A DNA stretch of 37,447 nt from Candidatus Neomarinimicrobiota bacterium (GCA_017656425.1 JACDNV010000019.1:1-37447), one strand, 5' to 3'; positions 5,571 through 19,738 are shown, counted from the stretch's first letter. Made by a program: numbers and translations. Notes: a model not told the origin generated them from the sequence alone.

Positions 5571-5957
5571 CTAAAAATCGTGTTTTTTATCCTCGGAAAA
5601 ATATAGCGGGTATTCCCCTTCAGAAATATCCAGGAATAATATAGATTTAGCAGGTCCCAGAGCAGTAAGACACATTTCAGGAACATATATACCTAAAATG
5701 TTAATAGAAATCTTATTGCCCTGTATTGTTGTCTCGGATATTATTGACCAGTTAAAACAGGGATATATTTTCTCAGTGGCCATTGATAGCATTATACCTG
5801 GTTCACTAATGGATTCAAAATTTCGATACCCTTCTTGAATATTGAATATGATATTACCCTCTATCGGTTCCAGGTTTTCATAATCGGAGTTGTCACAACT
5901 TAGAAAAATGAATATAAGCGTGGCAATTATGAAAAGTGATAATGTTTTTATTTTAGG
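5571..5957 (-). pseudogene. Truncated duplicate of the lipoprotein gene at 15576-16391
   Basis: The frame carries the same signal peptide with lipobox (FIFLSC) and the first ~150 residues of the complete copy near 16 kb. The start codon is ATA instead of ATG, and after the GEYPLYFS motif the frame ends in EDKKHDF-stop where the full protein continues for about 140 residues. The shared 364 bp are identical in DNA, so the duplication is recent. A shorter reading frame from an internal Met (5571-5792) is available but has no ribosome binding site. Probably non-functional. Confidence 0.75.
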
Positions 5958-7583: not shown

Positions 7584-7665
7584 ACCTAACATCTTACGTA
7601 CATACAAAATTCGGCTTTGCCGAATTTGGGTGTAGCCATGTATAACTATATGCCCGTTGTTATCG
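7584..7665 (-). other. attC-like site
   Basis: The coding-strand end GTTAGGT (plus-strand ACCTAAC, 7584-7590) is a perfect core. The centre holds an exact hairpin AATTCGGC-TTT-GCCGAATT at about 7609-7627. The distal core CGATAAC is degenerate. It begins 8 bp after the stop of the upstream gene (7673), as in cassettes. Confidence 0.6.
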
Positions 7666-10982: not shown

Positions 10983-11026
10983 TCAAGCACTTTCTTTTTT
11001 TACCTTTCTATTTTTTGTCGCATTTC

Positions 11027-11114
11027 GCTTAACGTTCCCAGCGTATCTGAAGTTCCCCGATGGGGAATTTGGGTGGAGGTGCAAAGCACCGAAGCCAGAT
11101 ACGCTGTGTTATAC
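11027..11114 (-). other. attC-like site (textbook architecture)
   Basis: GCTTAAC (11027-11033) and GTTATAC (11108-11114) bound a perfect 11-bp inverted repeat, CAGCGTATCTG (11039-11049) and CAGATACGCTG (11096-11106). Two inner hairpins lie at TTCCCCGATGGGGAA and GGTGCAAAGCACC. On the coding strand it ends in GTTAAGC, a perfect GTTRRRY. It starts 20 bp after the restriction enzyme stop. Confidence 0.75.
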
Positions 11115-11133
11115 GCCGTGTCGCTCATTTTTA

Positions 11134-11676
11134 TCATACATCTATGAATATTACTTTTATAGGAACGCTAGGAAAGTTTCTCTGAAGTCGCTCAATATCG
11201 TAAACAAGTTGTTCACCATAAGAGACCCCTGTGGACATTTCTTTGTGAAGATAATAACATGGAACTATCTCAATACCAACATCTGCCTGATTTTTATTGT
11301 AAAAGTATTGGAATTTAGCAAGATCATAGAACATAAAAGCATACTTACCAAACTGCACTTCAACCAAGACTCTTTCCTTTAAGAAGTCTATCTGTTTAAA
11401 TGCCTTTATCTTGTGTTTCGTATCGTAAGAGTCTATTTCATAAAAATCTTTTAGTTCTTTATAACCCCGTTTGTAAAATTCCTCTTTGAATGCTTTATTC
11501 ATGTCTTTAGGTGAATACAATAATTTTCCCATTTTTGTTTTCTCTTTACTTATTTTGGTTCTACCTGTAATTTTAACAGAATCTATGATTTCATCTATTT
11601 CTTGCTCTATATGAGGATATCTTACTTTTAATATCTCTAAGCCTCCAAGATGAGAATATTCAAAGACTTTTTTCAT
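11134..11676 (-). CDS. Type II restriction endonuclease, BglII/BstYI-like
   Basis: Starting at the ATG with a GGAAGGTG site (11676) gives 180 residues. The core has an acidic residue in KQIDFLKERV and the strand VLVEVQFGKYAFMFYDLAKF, matching the D...E-x-Q active site of the BglII/BstYI group, in which Gln replaces the usual Lys of PD-(D/E)XK nucleases. Such enzymes cut sites with a GATC core (RGATCY or AGATCT); the exact site here is not readable. It overlaps the preceding methyltransferase by 17 bp in the same direction, the usual arrangement of a restriction-modification pair carried as one module. Expression after the methylase by translational coupling would favour protection before cutting. 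Confidence 0.75.
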   Translation of the reverse strand: MKKVFEYSHLGGLEILKVRYPHIEQEIDEIIDSVKITGRTKISKEKTKMGKLLYSPKDMNKAFKEEFYKRGYKELKDFYEIDSYDTKHKIKAFKQIDFLKERVLVEVQFGKYAFMFYDLAKFQYFYNKNQADVGIEIVPCYYLHKEMSTGVSYGEQLVYDIERLQRNFPSVPIKVIFIDV

Positions 11677-12604
11677 TTTTTTCACCTTCCAAATAATCAA
11701 AAAGACCCGCTTCTATTTCCATTCTAAGATGTTTTGGTTTATAAATTGGTTTGCCCATAGGTCTTAGTTTTAATTTACCTCTAAGAAGTAACTCAATCCT
11801 CTGTTTTGCGATTTTTATATATTCTTCAATTATATCCGCACCAGCAGCCTTTCTGCCATGTAAGATAGCAGCTATCGCTGTTGAACCGACACCAATAAAT
11901 GGATCGATCACCCAATCACCTGGATTCGTAAGAGCAAGAACAAGTCTTTCAATTAACTCTACAGGAAATTGACATGGATGAATAGTTTTTTCCGGGTGAT
12001 TAGATTTTACATTTGGGATTTCCCATACATCAGTAGGATTCTTACCAAGAGGATGACAAGATAATTCTCCCTTTTTGGGTCCTTTAAAGTATTTCTTAGT
12101 GGGATATTTTTGAGGAACTCTAACGGCATCAAGGTTGAAAATGTAGTTTTCAGACTTTGTAAACCAAAGTATAACTTCATATCTGCCAGAAAATCTTTTT
12201 CGGGCATGTAAACCGTGTCCAAAATGCCAAATTATTCTGTTTCTTAACTTAAGACCAAACTTGTCAAAAATAGGATAGAGAAGAATATCCAGTGGGATAA
12301 TAGACCCGTTATCAACATAATTGCCTATTTGCCAACATATACTTCCATTGTCTTTTGTAATTCTAATAGACTCTTTAATAACCTTCTCTTGTTGTTCTAT
12401 ATACTCCTGAAGGTTAATTTTTTTCTCATAAGGTTTCCCTATGTTATAAGGGGGTGAAGTAACAATAAGACCCGCAGTTTTGTTAGGAATTTGTTTGAGG
12501 AGATCCAAAGTATCCCCTAAGTATAAAACTACATCAGCATCTATGTCGAACTTCTTGGTTATTTTCAACTTTTTATCCCACCACATTAGTGTTGATCCTT
12601 TCAT
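11660..12604 (-). CDS. DNA methyltransferase (beta class, probably N4-cytosine) of the restriction-modification pair
   Basis: Motif IV is TSPPYN (near residue 50) and comes before motif I DPFIGVGSTAIAA (near 235), the permuted order of beta-class enzymes. S-PPY is typical of N4-cytosine methylases. Target-recognition sequence lies between them (RKRFSGRYEVILWFTKSE onward). The ATG at 12604 has GAAAGG seven bases upstream; the longer frame begins with a TTG. It modifies the host sites so that the overlapping BglII-like nuclease spares them. The two genes form one module bounded by attC-like sites at 11027 and 12630. Confidence 0.85.
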   Translation of the reverse strand: MKGSTLMWWDKKLKITKKFDIDADVVLYLGDTLDLLKQIPNKTAGLIVTSPPYNIGKPYEKKINLQEYIEQQEKVIKESIRITKDNGSICWQIGNYVDNGSIIPLDILLYPIFDKFGLKLRNRIIWHFGHGLHARKRFSGRYEVILWFTKSENYIFNLDAVRVPQKYPTKKYFKGPKKGELSCHPLGKNPTDVWEIPNVKSNHPEKTIHPCQFPVELIERLVLALTNPGDWVIDPFIGVGSTAIAAILHGRKAAGADIIEEYIKIAKQRIELLLRGKLKLRPMGKPIYKPKHLRMEIEAGLFDYLEGEKNEKSL

Positions 12605-12629
12605 TTTTTTGCCTTTCAAACGGCATGGC

Positions 12630-12697
12630 GTATAACCTCCTGTTAAGTGACCAGAAGGGCAAGGTGCGAAGCACCGCAGAGTGCCCGCCGTCGCTGT
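12630..12697 (-). other. attC-like site, degenerate
   Basis: The coding strand ends in GTTATAC (12630-12636) just before the methyltransferase start. Arms GGGCA (12657-12661) and TGCCC (12682-12686) enclose an exact GGTGC-GAA-GCACC hairpin. A second core-like GTTAAGT lies at 12642-12648. The 13-mer TGCCCGCCGTCGC (12682-12694) recurs inverted at 15435-15447. Confidence 0.45.
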
Positions 12698-12705
12698 AAA
12701 TTCTA

Positions 12706-13341
12706 TTAAACTTTATTCGTATTTCCACTGTAATCCACTTCCCAAATTTCTGGAGAACTTGAAATTTGATTTAATGACCTTATTTGAGAAATAACTGAAT
12801 TTGGTATATTATTAAATTGTCTAGCAAGGGATAAAAGTATAGGCTTTATATTAAATCTTCTACCACCGAGAATATGTCCGCCTATATCCTCTCTTGCCCA
12901 ATTTATATAATATTCCAACTGCATAGGAGCAAAATTTACACCTATTCCAGATTTTGGGTGTTTAAGTTCTATTATTCTATAAATATATTCTGTTTCATCT
13001 AATTTTTCTATTGTTAGAAGATCTATTTTTTGCATTCCAGACCCTGCGAAAACTTCATTTCCTATCCATACTATATTTCTTCCAAAAATCTGTGGTAAAA
13101 ACTTGTTATTTCCTATACTTAAATTCTGTAAAATATACGCTTGTAAGTGTGTCTCTGAATTCTTAACATCATTCAAAGATACTTGAATTGGTGTCCCTAT
13201 ATTATGGGTACTTGTTTGCTGCCCCTGATTTATTTCGTATCTTGTAATATCAAATGTAAAATGCTGTCCTGATAAGTGTTGTCCATTATTTTCATCTTTT
13301 ATTAGAGAAATTAGTCTTTCTACTTCCCACGGAAAAAGCAT
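12706..13341 (-). CDS. Predicted PD-(D/E)XK nuclease of a four-gene module
   Basis: 211 residues. The core reads ETHLQAYILQNL (alpha-helix Glu), GMQKIDLLTIEK (Asp strand) and YRIIELKHPKSG (ELK), the E...D...ExK order seen in NucS-like and other restriction-type nucleases. It is followed by a helix MQLEYYINWARED. A DNA-cutting role is inferred. It is the last gene of an operon with overlaps: 22 bp with the preceding small gene, with GAGGG before its ATG. An attC-like site follows its stop within 10 bp. The family is not named more precisely. Confidence 0.65.
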   Translation of the reverse strand: MLFPWEVERLISLIKDENNGQHLSGQHFTFDITRYEINQGQQTSTHNIGTPIQVSLNDVKNSETHLQAYILQNLSIGNNKFLPQIFGRNIVWIGNEVFAGSGMQKIDLLTIEKLDETEYIYRIIELKHPKSGIGVNFAPMQLEYYINWAREDIGGHILGGRRFNIKPILLSLARQFNNIPNSVISQIRSLNQISSSPEIWEVDYSGNTNKV

Positions 13342-13640
13342 TGTATTCCCTCGTTTTGCCTTTTTTCTAGTTTATTTCTATAAAAACAAATAATTTCTTG
13401 CCCAGAGCCCAATTCCCCAAAAAAAGTGCAATCCATACAATCATCAAAACTAATTCCTTCTACTTTTTCACCATATTCGTCGAATCCTTTATATTTTTTA
13501 AATTTCTTTTCAATTGGACAGTTAATGACTATTGCAGGAATACCAAAACCGTCTGAGAGCTCATGTCCAAAGTCTATTTCTGTTTCAAATTCGTTTATCT
13601 TTTTATGCAAAACTACTCTATGAGGTTGCACTTTTCTCAT
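13320..13640 (-). CDS. Small cysteine-containing protein of the nuclease module (106 aa)
   Basis: The protein has two close cysteines in FDDCMDCTFFGELGSGQEI plus others at CPIEKK and CFYRN, which could bind a metal, though the spacing is not a standard zinc finger. No known family is recognised. The ATGA overlap with the upstream nuclease and the 22-bp overlap with the downstream one put it firmly in the same operon, so it is likely a subunit or regulator of that system. An AAAGGTTGG site precedes its ATG. Confidence 0.6.
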   Translation of the reverse strand: MRKVQPHRVVLHKKINEFETEIDFGHELSDGFGIPAIVINCPIEKKFKKYKGFDEYGEKVEGISFDDCMDCTFFGELGSGQEIICFYRNKLEKRQNEGIQCFFRGK

Positions 13641-14677
13641 ATTTCCAACCTTTCAAATTTTATATTGTTATCTATGACTTTATATTTGTAGCACTCAATT
13701 CCTTTATTTGAAAAATCACTATTTTTAGCTTTCATTATTGCACTTTTTTTAAAATCAAACGCTATTAATATAGGTTGAACCATCTCAACTTCTCCACCGG
13801 CCAATCTACCTGCAACCCATTTTGAATATTCAATAACTTGGGAAATATCTTTTGCTTCTGCTTTGTCTTTTTTAAGCTCGACAACAGTATATCTGTAACG
13901 CAAGGGATAGCCTGTGTATTTAGCATTTTTATGATAAAATAGTATATCTATATTTTTTCGTGTTACATGATAAGGAACATTGTTTGCAAACCATTCTATA
14001 TCTTCCACTGGGCCGAATATTTTTCTTATATCATTATGGTTAGGATTATCAATATTAGCTATCATCCAACCTCTTAGTATATCTTCTAATAGTACTTTAC
14101 CATTTTTGCTTAACTTATCTATTGGTAAAATTACTCCCTTTGTAGTTTTATTTGGATAACTTTTCATAGATTTTAGTTTATTGATAGCATTCCCATTCAA
14201 CTTTACAAGAAGTTCCACCAGTACTTGCGCTGTTTCAGGATTAATCGTGTTTATCCCTCTTGCTCCCTGAATTTTTCTATAAAACCATCCCCAACATTTG
14301 GATTCATATTCTCTTGACGAAAAAAGTAAATCTTCTGGAACGGATAATGGAAAGTAATTAATACATTCTACTTTCAATCTTAATGGCCATGTTGAGTCAA
14401 CGCAACCAATAGGAGTAGGATCAAAAAACGGTTTGCTAATGATTTTATATATTCCGTGAAAACCTACTTGTCGCTCATAAAAAAATACTATATCACCAAT
14501 TCTTGTACCTAAAATATCTGCAATCATTCCAAAATAAGGCTTTTTACCGTTTTTTAGATTTTCTTTAATGACATCTTCATATCTAGATGGAATTCCTTTA
14601 ACTCCAACTCCCCAGAATCCATTATCTCTCACTACTGGGAATGTTCTACTATCTGTGATGAGGATATGCGCTCTCAT
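13637..14677 (-). CDS. EVE/PUA-like domain fused to a PD-(D/E)XK nuclease
   Basis: Residues 1-130 (MRAHILITDSRTFPVVRDNG, GTRIGDIVFFYERQVGFHGI, YKIISKPFFD) look like an EVE/PUA-like beta barrel, a fold that recognises modified bases. The C-terminal third has RKNIDILFYHKN, then YTVVELKKDKAEAKD and a helix ISQVIEYSKWVAGR, giving a D...ELK nuclease core. Known fusions of this sort are modification-dependent restriction enzymes; that function is inferred here. It overlaps the upstream methyltransferase-like gene and the downstream small gene by ATGA junctions, so all four genes are translated as one unit. Confidence 0.7.
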   Translation of the reverse strand: MRAHILITDSRTFPVVRDNGFWGVGVKGIPSRYEDVIKENLKNGKKPYFGMIADILGTRIGDIVFFYERQVGFHGIYKIISKPFFDPTPIGCVDSTWPLRLKVECINYFPLSVPEDLLFSSREYESKCWGWFYRKIQGARGINTINPETAQVLVELLVKLNGNAINKLKSMKSYPNKTTKGVILPIDKLSKNGKVLLEDILRGWMIANIDNPNHNDIRKIFGPVEDIEWFANNVPYHVTRKNIDILFYHKNAKYTGYPLRYRYTVVELKKDKAEAKDISQVIEYSKWVAGRLAGGEVEMVQPILIAFDFKKSAIMKAKNSDFSNKGIECYKYKVIDNNIKFERLEI

Positions 14678-15381
14678 ATTCCTCTCATTTCAATATTTGT
14701 AATAATATCCACATTAAATTTATTTGGTTCTTTTTCTATTAATTGTTTTGCTTTCCCAACTACTTCAGGATTTATTTCAAAACCAATTCCATTTCTACCT
14801 AATCTCCTACATTCAATCAATGTTGTTCCACTTCCAACAAAAGGATCCAGAACCCAATCACCTTTTTTAGTATATCTTGACATCAATTGATGAGGGATTT
14901 GTGGAATGAAATTACCCCAATACCAAGCGAGATGAGCACCAGAAGAATCTCTTTTATCAAATAGCCATAAGCTATCTGTAATTATTTCTTCATATTCTTT
15001 CCATCTACTCAGATTTATATCATTTATTTTGTTTGTTTTAACTTCTACCAAAGCTTTCTTTAACCTTCTTAAATAATACTTGGCTCTTTCTAAAGTTAAA
15101 GTTTCCTCTATCTGGGTTAATTCATCTATTATGTAATCATATTTAATCTCAATTGTATCACCGTTCTTATCAATATTTAAAATACCAATTTTATCGTTGT
15201 TTGTCGAATAAATATTAGTTTTTAATTGCCTTAACTTTAATTTCAGTTCTTGAAGGCTCTGGATTTTAAGTAAATCATCTAAAACTTCTAATATTTTTGA
15301 TTTATTGATTATAATTTTTCGATTTTTAAATTTACTCTCATTATCGAATAGTGTTTTTTGAATTGATTTTTCATTCTTCAT
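14674..15381 (-). CDS. Truncated DNA methyltransferase-like protein lacking the catalytic PPY motif
   Basis: Residues 115-220 match the SAM-binding half of a known methyltransferase type: RWKEYEEIITDSLWLF, DSSGAHLAWYWGNF, IPQIPHQLMSRYTKKGDWVL and motif I DPFVGSGTT, then RRLGRNGIGFEINPEVV. In full-length relatives the catalytic HPPY or SPPY segment comes after this, followed by about 150 more residues. Here the protein stops at FNVDIITNIEMRGI and no PPY occurs anywhere. The stop overlaps the next gene's ATG, so the short form is built into the operon rather than an obvious recent frameshift. It may bind SAM or DNA without methylating. The N-terminal ~110 residues are helical and unrecognised. 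A GGAGAG site precedes the ATG. Confidence 0.75.
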   Translation of the reverse strand: MKNEKSIQKTLFDNESKFKNRKIIINKSKILEVLDDLLKIQSLQELKLKLRQLKTNIYSTNNDKIGILNIDKNGDTIEIKYDYIIDELTQIEETLTLERAKYYLRRLKKALVEVKTNKINDINLSRWKEYEEIITDSLWLFDKRDSSGAHLAWYWGNFIPQIPHQLMSRYTKKGDWVLDPFVGSGTTLIECRRLGRNGIGFEINPEVVGKAKQLIEKEPNKFNVDIITNIEMRGI

Positions 15382-15451
15382 TTTAATCTCTCCATAAAAC
15401 TATTGAAATTTCTCTTTTTATAAATCTTTCCAAGGCGACGGCGGGCATTTC

Positions 15452-15575: not shown

Positions 15576-16391
15576 TTAATCGTCAAATAACCATGAAAGA
15601 TACTTCTTATTTTTCCAATTTATCAATGAAATTCCAATACCTGAATACTGCGCTATTACATTTTGGGTATATGATTTTAATATTTCACCCGCTTTATCGA
15701 AATCCTCATCCTTTTTATAAAAGAAATATTTTGCTGGCATATCATAATGATGTCCCATACTTGAACGAGGATAGGGAATTTCACCGGAATCGGGAAACTG
15801 GAATTCTTCGAGGTGTATCTTGCTTAATAAAGTATCCAGAAAATCCTCGCATATCCATGAAGTCTCATTAGTTGTTCCACATAGGTAAGCAAATGAATTA
15901 GGTGGATAACGCCAGAATAGTTTAAACTTTGGTTTGGTAAATTGTGATTCATCTTCAGTAATTTTAATGCAGGAGTCGGTAATAGTGAGAACATAGCTAT
16001 CTGTAATATTCTCGTAGGAAAAATATAGCGGGTATTCCCCTTCAGAAATATCCAGGAATAATATAGATTTAGCAGGTCCCAGAGCAGTAAGACACATTTC
16101 AGGAACATATATACCTAAAATGTTAATAGAAATCTTATTGCCCTGTATTGTTGTCTCGGATATTATTGACCAGTTAAAACAGGGATATATTTTCTCAGTG
16201 GCCATTGATAGCATTATACCTGGTTCACTAATGGATTCAAAATTTCGATACCCTTCTTGAATATTGAATATGATATTACCCTCTATCGGTTCCAGGTTTT
16301 CATAATCGGAGTTGTCACAACTTAGAAAAATGAATATAAGCGTGGCAATTATGAAAAGTGATAATGTTTTTATTTTAGGTGAGGTAATCAT
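15576..16391 (-). CDS. Predicted outer-membrane lipoprotein of unknown function (271 aa)
   Basis: The ATG at 16391 has GGAGG four bases upstream; a longer frame to 16448 adds residues with no signal-peptide logic. The product begins MITSPKIKTLSLFIIATLIF and has a lipobox ending in LSC, so it is cleaved and lipidated. The mature part is beta-rich with several cysteines (CFNW, MCLTALG, CIKI, LCGTTNET, WICEDF). I do not recognise the family. It is a single-gene module bordered by attC-like sites. Its first ~364 bp were copied exactly to 5595-5958, where they form a truncated pseudogene, so this is the donor or the surviving full copy. Confidence 0.7.
   Translation of the reverse strand: MITSPKIKTLSLFIIATLIFIFLSCDNSDYENLEPIEGNIIFNIQEGYRNFESISEPGIMLSMATEKIYPCFNWSIISETTIQGNKISINILGIYVPEMCLTALGPAKSILFLDISEGEYPLYFSYENITDSYVLTITDSCIKITEDESQFTKPKFKLFWRYPPNSFAYLCGTTNETSWICEDFLDTLLSKIHLEEFQFPDSGEIPYPRSSMGHHYDMPAKYFFYKKDEDFDKAGEILKSYTQNVIAQYSGIGISLINWKNKKYLSWLFDD
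16017..16380 (-). repeat. 364-bp exact direct repeat, copy 2
   Basis: Identical to 5595-5958. It covers the signal peptide and first third of the full-length lipoprotein gene. Confidence 0.9.
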
Positions 16392-16416
16392 ATTACCTCC
16401 ATTTATGTGTGATTTT

Positions 16417-16504
16417 GAATAATGGTTTGGGCACATTCGAAGTTTCAAACGAGGAGAGTAATTTAGTCGAAGCGTTATTGAAATGGAATATGTACCTGTC
16501 AGGT
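16417..16504 (-). other. attC-like site
   Basis: The coding strand starts ACCTGAC (one mismatch to RYYYAAC, plus 16498-16504). Arms GGTACATATTC and GAATGTGCC pair with two extrahelical bases, and the near core ATTATTC is eroded. It lies between the STAND gene and the lipoprotein gene. Confidence 0.5.
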
Positions 16505-16556: not shown

Positions 16557-19500
16557 TTATTTGTCGCCTCTGCAAAATCTAAGGAGGTTCTTTAGATTTT
16601 CTACAACTAGAGGATAAATTTCTGGAAACTCTTCTTTTGTAAACACTTTAAGTGCTTCATTATAAGCTTTGATTGCATTCTCGCAGTTCTCAGCCTTCCC
16701 CTCTACTTCTGCAAGCTTGTTGTAGGCAGTACCAAGGTTGTTTTGAGTCATTGCGTAATCTATTGGAAAACGGTTAGGAATATATACTTTCAGTGTTTCA
16801 TTAAAAGCTTTAATTGCCTTTTTACAGTTTTCAGCCGTATCCTTTACCTCTGCAAGGGTTCTATAAGCAGCACCAATATTATTTTGGGTTTTAGCATACA
16901 ACATTGGAAAGCGATCAGGGATATAAAATTTCAGTGCTTCATTATAAGCTTTGATTGCCTTTTCGCAGTTCTCAACTGTATCCTTTACCTCTGCAAGTTT
17001 TCTATATGCAGTACCAAGGTTGTTTTGAGTCATTGCGTAATCCATTGGAAAAAAGTTATGGGTATAGACTTTTAGTGCTTCATTATAAGCTTTAATTGCC
17101 TTTTCGCAGTTCTCAACTGTATCCTCTACTTCTGCAAGGGTACCATATGTAGTACCAAGGTTGTTTTGAGTCTTTGCGTAATCTATCGGAAAACGGTCAG
17201 GGGTATAGACTTTCAGCGCTTCATTAAAAGCTTTAATTGCCTTTTCGCAGTTCTCAACTGTATCCTTTACCTCTGCAAGTTTTCTATATGCAGTACCAAG
17301 GTTGTTTTGAGTCATTGCGTAATCCATTGGAAAAAAGTTATGGGTATAGACTTTTAGTGCTTCATTATAAGCTTTAATTGCCTTTTCGCAGTTCTCAACT
17401 GTATCCTCTACTTCTGCAAGGGTACCATATGTAGTACCAAGGTTGTTTTGAGTCTTTGCGTAATCTATCGGAAAACGGTCAGGGGTATAGACTTTCAGCG
17501 CTTCATTAAAAGCTTTAATTGCCTTTTCGCAGTTCTCAACTGTATCCTTTACCTCTGCAAGTTTTCTATATGCAGTACCAAGGTTGTTTTGAGTCATTGC
17601 GTAATCCATTGGAAAAAAGTTATGGGTATAGACTTTTAGTGCTTCATTATAAGCTTTAATTGCCTTTTCGCAGTTCTCAACTGTATCCTCTACTTCTGCA
17701 AGGGTACCATATGCAATCCCAAGGTTGTTTTGAATCATTGCATACTGCACTGGAAAGCGTTCAAAAGTTATTACTTTAAGTGCTTCCTTATAGGCTTTGA
17801 TTGCCTTCTTGCGGTTCTCAGCAGTTTCTTTATAATTTGACAATTTGTTGTAAACATCGCCGAGTAGGAAAAAAGCATATGCTCTTTCTTTTTTTTCGAG
17901 GTTCTTTATAATTTCGTTGATTAACATCGGTAGGAGTTCATATGTATGCTCTATTGGTTCTATCAAAGAGTATAAGTTCCTAAAACGTATATAGATGTTT
18001 TCTTCATAATTTGTTTTACATTTGCAAAACAAAAATTTAATTTCGTCTTCGATTTTTCCTTCTTTCTTTAATTTTTCTTGATAGTATCGAAGTGCTAAAC
18101 AATAATTTTCAGGAACATCTTCGAAAATAACATCCTGAAACTGGTCTAATGCCCATAAAAGTTTATCATTCTCAAGTTTCATTATTTTTGCGTCAATTGC
18201 TTCGCCCCATACTTTTTTATCCAATATTTTATTTAGAATCTGGAAATCTACAGGTTCAAACATTGTAATGACTGATATGTTTTTTACAAAATCATACGCA
18301 TCCTGAGAGAGAGATGTTTCAAAAACTCTGAGTATATACTCTTGTACATCTTCATCACTTGCAAAATCTAAGCCCTGCTTGAAATTTTCTAAATTGCTAA
18401 TTCCTACTCTTTCTAAGTTACTGACAAGAAGATAGGTTGCAACGGGATGCCCTTCTCCTACTTCTCCTATCTTTACTGCATCCTCTTGATTTAGTTTTTT
18501 ACCCAGGCGACAAGCTATAATTTCTACTAAACGATCCCGTTCATTTTCTTCAATAACATCAAGAGGCAAACGATAATAGGCAAGTCTGGTTTCTTTTTTT
18601 GAAGTAAAAAGTATTGAGCCATTCCTTAGGGCATTGTTACCCTTTCTTATTAGCTTTTTAAGGCTTTCATCAATCTCATCAGCCTTAATATTATCTATAA
18701 AAAGTATTATGCCTTTACTATTCAATTTTGAAAGGATAAGGTTTATTTTTGATTCTGTATTTTCTTTTTTCATTTCAGAAGGAAGCACCAAGCAGTCAAT
18801 AAGGTCATCGATAGATAAATAACGAAAATGTTTTGGAGCAAGAATTTTTGAAGCCCACTCATAACCTGTACCAGAAGAATACGTCCCCTCTATTCCAGTG
18901 TATATGATCTTCTTACCAAAGATTTTATAAAGAGATAGAACCAACTCACAAAGGGTTGTTTTACCTATACCTCCTACCCCACTAACCTCTGTACACCTGC
19001 CAGATCCAACTTTTTCAAACAAGTCTTTTAATTCCTCTCGTCTTCCCACAAAATTCCCCAGGTTGATCTTTTTCTCTGAATACCACTTGATGACATTTGA
19101 TACGAGATCTTCAACAACCTTTTGAATACTTTCATTATCTCTTTTTATTCGTGGACAATACTCTATTGATTCAATTTCATCTCTGAATTTCCATAAATTA
19201 GGAGAACCATCTCTGCTTGGCCATGTTTCATCAATGATATAACACATATGTGGCTTCTTCTCCGCAAGTGAAAACCGGTATTCACACCAGGTGTAAGAGA
19301 TTTTTTCTTTCCCTGTTTTCATATCACAATCCGCTTTACAGCTATCTTTATACACACATAACTCTACATTCGACCCATAGTATGGGGATATAAGAAAAAT
19401 GACAACATCACATTTTAATAGCTCATCTAATGCCCTTTTCTGCGAGGGTTCACCAGTTGGAATGAATACTTCCATACCTACAGCTTCAAAAGCTTTGCCT

Positions 19501-19601
19501 ATTTGTTTCAACAATTCTGCTCTTTCATCCTTTAAATCCCTGAATGTAGAGCTAAGGAATACACTCAGGACACCTTTTCTTTTTTTATTTATTCTATTCA
19601 T
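16557..19601 (-). CDS. DUF4062-STAND NTPase-TPR protein (predicted defence sensor/effector)
   Basis: Residues 10-180 are a DUF4062-type domain (LSVFLSSTFRDLKDERAELL, FIPTGEPSQK, DVVIFLISPYYG), a TIR-like fold proposed as effector. Residues 185-420 are a STAND P-loop ATPase: VGRREELKDLF, Walker A GVGGIGKTTL, Walker B GIILFIDNI and GSILFTSKK. From about 600 to the end there are eight full 47-residue TPR units (AIKAYNEALKVYTPDRFP, then YAMTQNNLGTAYRKLAEV) and a final partial one. STAND proteins sense a ligand with the C-terminal repeats, oligomerise using ATP and switch on the N-terminal effector; several are anti-phage. The function here is inferred from that architecture. AGGAGG precedes the start. 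It is alone between two attC-like sites. Confidence 0.85.
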   Translation of the reverse strand: MNRINKKRKGVLSVFLSSTFRDLKDERAELLKQIGKAFEAVGMEVFIPTGEPSQKRALDELLKCDVVIFLISPYYGSNVELCVYKDSCKADCDMKTGKEKISYTWCEYRFSLAEKKPHMCYIIDETWPSRDGSPNLWKFRDEIESIEYCPRIKRDNESIQKVVEDLVSNVIKWYSEKKINLGNFVGRREELKDLFEKVGSGRCTEVSGVGGIGKTTLCELVLSLYKIFGKKIIYTGIEGTYSSGTGYEWASKILAPKHFRYLSIDDLIDCLVLPSEMKKENTESKINLILSKLNSKGIILFIDNIKADEIDESLKKLIRKGNNALRNGSILFTSKKETRLAYYRLPLDVIEENERDRLVEIIACRLGKKLNQEDAVKIGEVGEGHPVATYLLVSNLERVGISNLENFKQGLDFASDEDVQEYILRVFETSLSQDAYDFVKNISVITMFEPVDFQILNKILDKKVWGEAIDAKIMKLENDKLLWALDQFQDVIFEDVPENYCLALRYYQEKLKKEGKIEDEIKFLFCKCKTNYEENIYIRFRNLYSLIEPIEHTYELLPMLINEIIKNLEKKERAYAFFLLGDVYNKLSNYKETAENRKKAIKAYKEALKVITFERFPVQYAMIQNNLGIAYGTLAEVEDTVENCEKAIKAYNEALKVYTHNFFPMDYAMTQNNLGTAYRKLAEVKDTVENCEKAIKAFNEALKVYTPDRFPIDYAKTQNNLGTTYGTLAEVEDTVENCEKAIKAYNEALKVYTHNFFPMDYAMTQNNLGTAYRKLAEVKDTVENCEKAIKAFNEALKVYTPDRFPIDYAKTQNNLGTTYGTLAEVEDTVENCEKAIKAYNEALKVYTHNFFPMDYAMTQNNLGTAYRKLAEVKDTVENCEKAIKAYNEALKFYIPDRFPMLYAKTQNNIGAAYRTLAEVKDTAENCKKAIKAFNETLKVYIPNRFPIDYAMTQNNLGTAYNKLAEVEGKAENCENAIKAYNEALKVFTKEEFPEIYPLVVENLKNLLRFCRGDK
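16954..17713 (-). repeat. 282-bp tandem repeat (2.7 copies) inside the TPR region
   Basis: With period 282 bp, positions 16954-17713 appear identical copy to copy. Each period is two 141-bp units encoding two different 47-residue TPRs. DNA-level identity shows recent unit duplication and makes the sensor length changeable by recombination. Confidence 0.85.
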
Positions 19602-19641
19602 ATTAATAACCTCCTATCTTTCAACGGACAAAGGAAATTTC

Positions 19642-19726
19642 AACTAACGTTTCCAGCATAAAAAAGTTTTTGCGAAGCAAAAATTTTTGTGAATTCTATG
19701 GGCGAACTTTTTATGCTGCGTTAAAT
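19642..19726 (-). other. attC-like site (textbook architecture)
   Basis: CAGCATAAAAAAGTT (19654-19668) pairs with AACTTTTTATGCTG (19705-19718), differing only by one extra A, like the extrahelical bases of attC. The inner hairpin TTTTTGC-GAA-GCAAAAA sits at the centre. The cores are ATTTAAC and GTTAGTT on the coding strand (one mismatch in the second). It begins 12 bp after the stop of the gene at 19739. Confidence 0.75.
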
Positions 19727-19738
19727 ATAGTTGGCCAT

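Follow-up and report, generated by a model that had tools for sequence, protein, structure and literature searches.

An EVE-nuclease gene between a truncated methyltransferase gene and a truncated second nuclease gene in Candidatus Neomarinimicrobiota: a probable, repeatedly formed restriction-modification scar

Gene cluster and genomic surroundings

Our analysis concerned a stretch of 37,447 nucleotides from Candidatus Neomarinimicrobiota bacterium (GCA_017656425.1, JACDNV010000019.1:1-37447), which is referred to as the window. Four overlapping open reading frames are located on its minus strand at 12706-15381, all of them present where a preliminary description of this DNA had placed them. 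The overlaps amount to 4 nt between M' and E, 4 nt between E and c, and 22 nt between c and N'. M and R denote the full-length methylase and nuclease to which M' and N' correspond. The features of the cluster and of a neighbouring restriction-modification (R-M) pair are as follows.

M', 14674-15381, minus strand: 235 aa, 3'-truncated DNA methyltransferase (MTase) of the PDLC03351 family
SAM-binding motif I (DPFVGSGTT) in M', 14821-14847, minus strand: from the translation, conserved in full-length relatives
E, 13637-14677, minus strand: 346 aa, EVE-like reader plus EndoMS/NucS-type PD-(D/E)XK nuclease
EVE/PUA-like N-terminal domain of E (about residues 1-165), 14183-14677, minus strand: from Pfam, Foldseek and the relative L092
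Putative catalytic D244 ... E267-L-K269 of E, 13871-13948, minus strand: invariant in 15 aligned sequences, EndoMS fold
c (P0003), 13320-13640, minus strand: 106 aa, Cys-containing small protein
Tail of c (last 16 codons and stop), 13320-13370, minus strand: out-of-frame R-derived DNA, junction at about 13371
N', 12706-13341, minus strand: 211 aa, second PD-(D/E)XK nuclease, a 5'-truncated R
MTase of the BglII-like pair, 11660-12619, minus strand: PF01555, 8.6e-58
BglII-like restriction endonuclease (REase), 11134-11700, minus strand: PF09195, 2.4e-21

The BglII-like R-M pair (11134-12619) is separate, apparently complete and 86 nt away from the cluster, and E must therefore tolerate the mark set by that enzyme.

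Several repeats were observed in the surroundings. Four GTTARNYGAAAT boxes are located at 7590, 11033, 15458 and 19648 on the minus strand, all of them intergenic (0.1 expected per strand), and strong palindromes at 11020-11125 and 19630-19735 precede two of them. The window may represent an array of attC-type cassettes in which no integron integrase could be recognised; a search of the host genome gave no TIGR02249 match over the cut-off, and a tyrosine recombinase fragment with an internal stop, corresponding to TIGR02249 region 47-138, was seen at 356-634 on the plus strand. A 12-mer, GCGACGGCGGGC, occurs in inverted orientation around the cluster (12683-12694 and 15435-15446; 0.07 expected) with inverted GTTAAGTG boxes adjoining. 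This pair may represent cassette ends or the trace of an inversion; as a candidate transposon end, the 12-mer could not be tied to other E loci. A 300-nt direct repeat of 99% identity (5587-5886 and 16009-16308) belongs to an ORF at 15576-16448, which encodes a putative lipoprotein-like protein of 290 aa, and to a damaged copy of it. Finally, a 1014-aa protein with DUF4062, a P-loop ATPase and TPR repeats with a period of 141 bp is encoded at 16557-19601 (minus strand) and is a candidate for a STAND-like defence protein.

The truncated methyltransferase

M' matched the PADLOC model MTase_II PDLC03351 at positions 4-197 of 348 (2.6e-69). Its full-length relatives have 343-353 aa and are about 50% identical to it up to about residue 224, where M' stops. 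M' thereby comprises the N-terminal helical region and motif I, and motif IV (HPPY) and the C-terminus are missing: in full-length relatives HPPYxDIIKFS stands about 75 residues past motif I, within the C-terminal stretch of approximately 145 residues by which M' is short according to the alignment. Model match and alignment agree in this respect with the preliminary description, according to which M' has motif I yet ends before any PPY motif. A type II R-M system would include an MTase with both motif I and motif IV; M' has motif I only and, since motif IV is lacking, is predicted to be unable to methylate DNA or protect the host.

MTases made of two subunits exist, and the missing motif-IV half might be supplied in trans by another gene. 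We consider this highly improbable, as no complementary motif-IV half was found among the cluster ORFs, in the operon or in the related loci, and a search of the host genome for such a complement returned distant paralogues only (best E-values 1.9e-11 and 5.7e-11).

Domains, fold and conservation of E

The preliminary description had read E as a fusion of an EVE/PUA domain with a nuclease, and this is borne out by Foldseek comparisons of both halves. The nuclease half resembles EndoMS/NucS (5gkj, probability 1.00; 2vld, 0.99), and the N-terminal half resembles EVE/YTH folds (1wmm, 0.90; 2ar1, 0.97), with a weaker match to the YTH structure 4rdo. The match of E alone to Pfam EVE was weak (0.0099, below the cut-off), but the distant relative L092 exceeds that cut-off (29.4 versus 23 bits). 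The E profile gave a single weak EVE-type match among PDB sequences (PH1033, E = 0.12). The structure predicted from 14 aligned sequences reached a pTM of 0.78, its nuclease half being predicted with confidence and its N-terminal half less so, and in the AlphaFold model the EVE half is of low confidence at its start. Two features of type IV restriction enzymes were thus found in E, namely a predicted reader domain for modified bases, albeit with low model confidence for the N-terminal half, and a nuclease domain with conserved putative catalytic residues (D244/E267/K269). Judging from dN/dS values of 0.042 and 0.069 in close pairs, E is under strong purifying selection.

Distribution of E

A scan of 84,980 genomes for E yielded 15 loci with proteins of 59-79% identity. 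The metagenome-assembled genomes (MAGs) concerned are labelled as Omnitrophota, WOR-3/Stahlbacteria, Sumerlaeota, Chloroflexi, Cloacimonadota, Zipacnadia, Kapaibacterium, Ratteibacteria and others. A 16th relative, L100, came from a search within the WOR-3 phylum; here E itself is cut, and the setting with phage-type proteins suggests a prophage. As far as contigs reach, 15 of the 16 relatives have an uncut E, which is whole in 13 fully covered loci and shortened by contig ends alone in two more. All 15 genomes contain one main E locus each, the Ratteibacteria copy being divided between two contigs, and a second weak match in genome G246 is probably the adjoining R/N remnant.

None of the 60 further host relatives that were sampled contains E, and the only close copy among 400 Chloroflexota genomes was the search centre itself. 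The viral contigs, phages and plasmids scanned contained no close relatives of E, N or R; the sole plasmid relative of E was a solitary gene from Halobaculum with 28% identity. The high identity of E in combination with its patchy distribution indicates horizontal transfer. Most E loci are MAG contigs, in which individual junctions may be wrong. Assembly error was considered as a general cause of the truncations and rejected, as the genome to which the window belongs has a completeness of 99.66% and a contamination of 0, and the cuts differ across a dozen independent assemblies.

Methylase remnants beside E

Of 16 loci whose upstream sequence is readable, 12 have an M-family remnant before E (or before the small gene S, see below), namely the window, L020, L021, L022, L023, L024, L025, L026, L027, L029, L032 and L100, and in none of them is M complete. 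Eleven of these remnants are anchored at their 5' end. In P0001 numbering the shorter ones end at about 38 (L024), 124 (L022), 142 (L032), 157 (L020), 200 (L027) and 202 (L029), and the longer ones at 217 (L100), 224 (window), about 240 (L026), about 333 (L021) and about 357 (L023). The extremes are considerable: the piece of L022 comprises 60 aa, whereas the MTases preceding E in L021 and L023 are near-complete, and that of L023 (319 aa), which may be active, is short of just about 12 residues at its C-terminus. L025 retains only the C-terminal scrap GNQKELWR, L028 has a doubtful scrap upstream of E, and no M piece was found before E in L030, L031 or the Ratteibacteria locus. Motif I is gone from the pieces of L020, L032, L022 and L024. 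A perfect motif I with an end between motifs I and IV is found in the window, L100, L027 and L029; the clustering of cuts in this interval was not significant (scan P = 0.12).

It had been proposed to look for equally short homologues of M' and for the same gene order in other genomes. With regard to the former, homologues beside E are never complete, but of 57 family members found elsewhere, in 400 Chloroflexota genomes, 55 extend to the C-terminal end of the profile. For complete M in 0 of 11 cases beside E versus these 55 of 57 a Fisher test gives 5e-11, a figure that is indicative since the comparison group is a sample of another lineage. The gene order is not conserved, M, c and N being variable, truncated or absent beside E, with S and d in their place in other loci.

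Sister loci give an indication of the timing. L022 and L023 have E proteins of 97% identity and a common uracil-DNA-glycosylase-like gene upstream, but M pieces of 60 and 319 aa, respectively; L025 and L027 have E proteins of 96% identity, but a C-terminal scrap of M in one and the N-terminal 200 residues in the other. The different pieces carried by sister loci imply that M was lost after their split, and on the simplest reading the ancestor of each pair would have carried parts of M that one or both of its descendants no longer have. Distances of M and E are correlated (Mantel p = 0.026), so that both appear to have travelled together for some time.

Parent operon and origin of c and N'

A distant locus in Chloroflexota, L093, encodes a 360-aa M in which motif I, HPPYWDIIKF and a complete FKHEYIFLFKKE end are all present. 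This M overlaps by 1 nt with R, an EVE-nuclease of 385 aa. That R (R93) can be aligned from end to end with the E profile (hhalign probability 98.3, 2e-14). In L116, an R-like ORF starts just past the stop of a complete M but breaks off after 44 codons; here the nuclease decayed and the methylase stayed, which is the usual order for R-M systems. Because of the intact pair in L093 and the complete M with an R-like start in L116, we regard M-R as the parent arrangement.

N' is homologous to the nuclease domain of E, and its residues 1-187 align with residues 164-348 of R93 (30% identity, 2e-19). As N' begins at the position of R residue 164, the EVE half (R 1-163) is missing. The second nuclease of the preliminary description is thus real, but is more precisely an R remnant without its EVE half and not the complete cognate nuclease that a type II R-M system would contain. 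An AlphaFold model of N' alone reached a pLDDT of only 38. The same geometry with other end points was found in L020 (last ~20 residues of R), L032 (last 37) and L021 (R 113-269). The 106-aa Cys protein is likewise present, but is more precisely a protein of about 90 aa that now continues, in the wrong frame, into the remnant of R. Its homologue in L025 (7029-7286) has 85 aa and is 65.5% identical, and positions 13342-13371 read in the N' frame give TRKKAKRGNT-M, compared to RKLKGNRGNT-M in R93 and RKLKGKRGCT in L021. Since R remnants in the N' frame underlie the tail of c and the c homologue has only 85 aa, the order in the window is read as M(3'-cut) / E-c / R(5'-cut). One contiguous stretch over the M-R junction, from about residue 225 to the end of M and from residue 1 to about 153 of R, is absent from the window, and by these alignments it was replaced by E-c. 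The truncations, as aligned, face E on both sides of the cluster.

In relatives, neither the second nuclease nor the Cys protein is kept whole beside E: truncated forms or scraps are left, or nothing at all. A conserved multi-gene complex would keep the same partners with E, and these loci do not.

Other small genes were observed next to E. S (~76 aa, SFDIDDFIGDGxWWLQIYD) is conserved and is found before E in many loci (L023 1944-2174, L024 5774-6004 and L029 5774-6004 among them); d (~70 aa, VVYHExDxEGNHxYxFYDGxK) is conserved after E (L026 2287-2499, L028 7029-7244); the members of S and d tested against Pfam gave no match. A REase-like protein of 195 aa is intact in L022 (3268-3855) and L029 (7032-7619), where the neighbouring MTases are truncated, and is homologous (25%, 2e-16) to a nuclease beside a full M in L011.

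Interpretation of the cluster

We propose, with a probability of roughly two in three, that the cluster is the scar of an M-R operon whose middle was replaced by E-c, and that E is a stand-alone, modification-dependent nuclease. The truncations, the junctions, the homologies, the conservation of E and the repeated loss of M beside it can be read from the aligned sequences themselves. E outlives the repeated loss of M and therefore cannot depend on it for self-protection. A third feature of type IV enzymes, that no protective MTase is needed, is accordingly seen in 16 loci in which M is cut or absent and in the solitary E of Halobaculum. The EVE-like reader together with survival without M makes modification dependence the natural, though predicted, reading. 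The EVE-like domain would read a modified base on incoming DNA and the EndoMS/NucS-like domain would cut, probably as a dimer, while the host would be spared since its genome is without the mark, not through protection by M. M' probably persists because the promoter and leader of M and the overlapping stop and start would still drive E. N' would be left without its reader half, and c would be a small accessory protein whose tail arose by accident. M may have been lost either by E attacking its product or by becoming useless. We infer the nuclease activity of E, its modification dependence, the reason for the loss of M and the lack of function of M' and N'. Several observations speak against this reading: the intact REase of L022 and L029 stands without an intact cognate M, a situation outside this model; E itself is cut in L100; the M of L023 may be active; the start of the EVE half is modelled with low confidence; and the correlated distances point to a period of joint travel of M and E.

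Two alternatives had been put forward in the preliminary description. That the methylase lost its catalytic half and the remainder became modification-dependent fits the comparative evidence. According to the other, the half-methylase would act as sensor or targeting subunit in a defence complex of two nucleases. In such a complex M' would still bind SAM and DNA and serve E, and N' and c would be the further members. The clean M' frames and the four pieces with intact motif I, each cut just past it, leave room for a function of M', and the 4-nt overlap with E recurs in L022 and L100. However, we find such a role unlikely: the M piece varies from 38 to ~340 aa, has no motif I in four loci and is absent from three in which E is present, its cuts do not cluster significantly between the motifs, and most loci have only scraps of N' and c or lack them. 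The variable cuts in particular argue against a sensor subunit. Full-length MTases in the same operon of close relatives had been named as a sign of simple truncation; one was found in the distant L093, and beside E there are only the near-complete enzymes of L021 and L023. A simple, single truncation does not account for a loss that many lineages show with differing cut points, nor for the missing facing half of the second nuclease.

Alternatively, S-E-c/d might be a mobile, homing-like nuclease unit that inserts where an MTase gene and a nuclease gene meet, or close by, and whose repair into place costs flanking DNA on either side. The unrelated loci L025 (rluD/gltX) and L027 (topA/xerC) have a 1.3-kb S-E-c segment of 94% identity in common, and 44 nt of the gltX start are found downstream of E in L027 (7258-7301), with an intact gltX following E in L025. 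The common segment and the gltX piece show that the unit has moved. Furthermore, the host operons vary (M-R93 type and M...R195 type) and the damage faces E. If true, the unit would move horizontally, land on such junctions by preference and become established at the cost of the 3' half of the MTase and the 5' half of the gene that follows, and R-M operons would have been turned repeatedly into stand-alone modification-dependent systems across phyla. We nevertheless regard the mobile unit as a tentative and rather doubtful proposal, as neither terminal repeats nor a transposase or recombinase belonging to it were found, each genome has one main locus, the correlated M and E distances suggest long co-inheritance, and ordinary deletions with selection for E alone could yield the same picture. 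Still less probable is a canonical R-M system in terminal decay, with E as the now inactive or silent cognate REase of M and the whole locus dying. In its favour, E and R are homologous over their full length, R adjoins an intact M in L093, and E is cut in L100. This is countered by the otherwise uncut E with its dN/dS of 0.04-0.07 and invariant putative catalytic residues, and by L116, where the one decayed locus of M-R type seen kept M and lost the nuclease, the opposite of the E loci.

Comparison with known systems

Fusions of EVE and PD-(D/E)XK domains have been predicted to be type IV restriction enzymes by Bell, Wolf and Koonin (2020, PMC7641849). E resembles these in that an EVE-like reader and a PD-(D/E)XK nuclease are combined in a single protein, and in that EVE proteins were described near R-M genes. 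It differs in its EndoMS/NucS-like nuclease, neither NucS nor EndoMS occurring in the text of that paper, and in its position between a truncated MTase gene and a truncated second EVE-nuclease gene. VcaM4I (PMC7897488) similarly couples an EVE reader to a nuclease with modification-dependent cleavage, which for E is predicted, but its nuclease is of the HNH type and not EndoMS-like; its abstract mentions no MTase remnant. The fold of the E nuclease half is that of EndoMS/NucS (5gkj, 5gke, 2vld; Foldseek probability 0.97-1.00), whereas the N-terminal half resembles EVE/YTH and not the EndoMS N-terminal domain, and identity is 10-23%.

In PcaRCI/PcaRCII of Pectobacterium, the MTase silences the nuclease gene via promoter methylation (Birkholz 2022, PMC8989522). 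An MTase and a methylation-dependent nuclease that cannot both be active in one cell would be common to both cases if E reads the mark of M, but beside E the MTase gene is the one destroyed, and repeatedly so. M' also belongs to the same family as the PDLC03351 MTases of type II R-M systems, intact members of which are solitary or located beside a nuclease (L011, L093); unlike these, M' is without motif IV and is predicted to provide no host protection. Our literature searches among open-licence papers found no description of the present arrangement.

Significance

In R-M theory the nuclease is expected to be lost before the methylase, because the reverse order kills the cell. The E loci reverse this expectation: the methylase goes and the EVE-nuclease stays, many times and in many bacterial phyla. 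The arrangement is probably a scar, formed repeatedly and enclosing a nuclease of probable type IV-like character, and not a four-subunit system, and it cautions against taking a gene order with partial enzymes for a new multi-subunit system. The comparison of L093-type M-R operons with E offers a testable pair for how a methylase and a reader of modified bases share one operon. The E loci constitute a natural experiment on self-protection, in which the sequence alone predicts that nucleases of this family need no protecting methylase.
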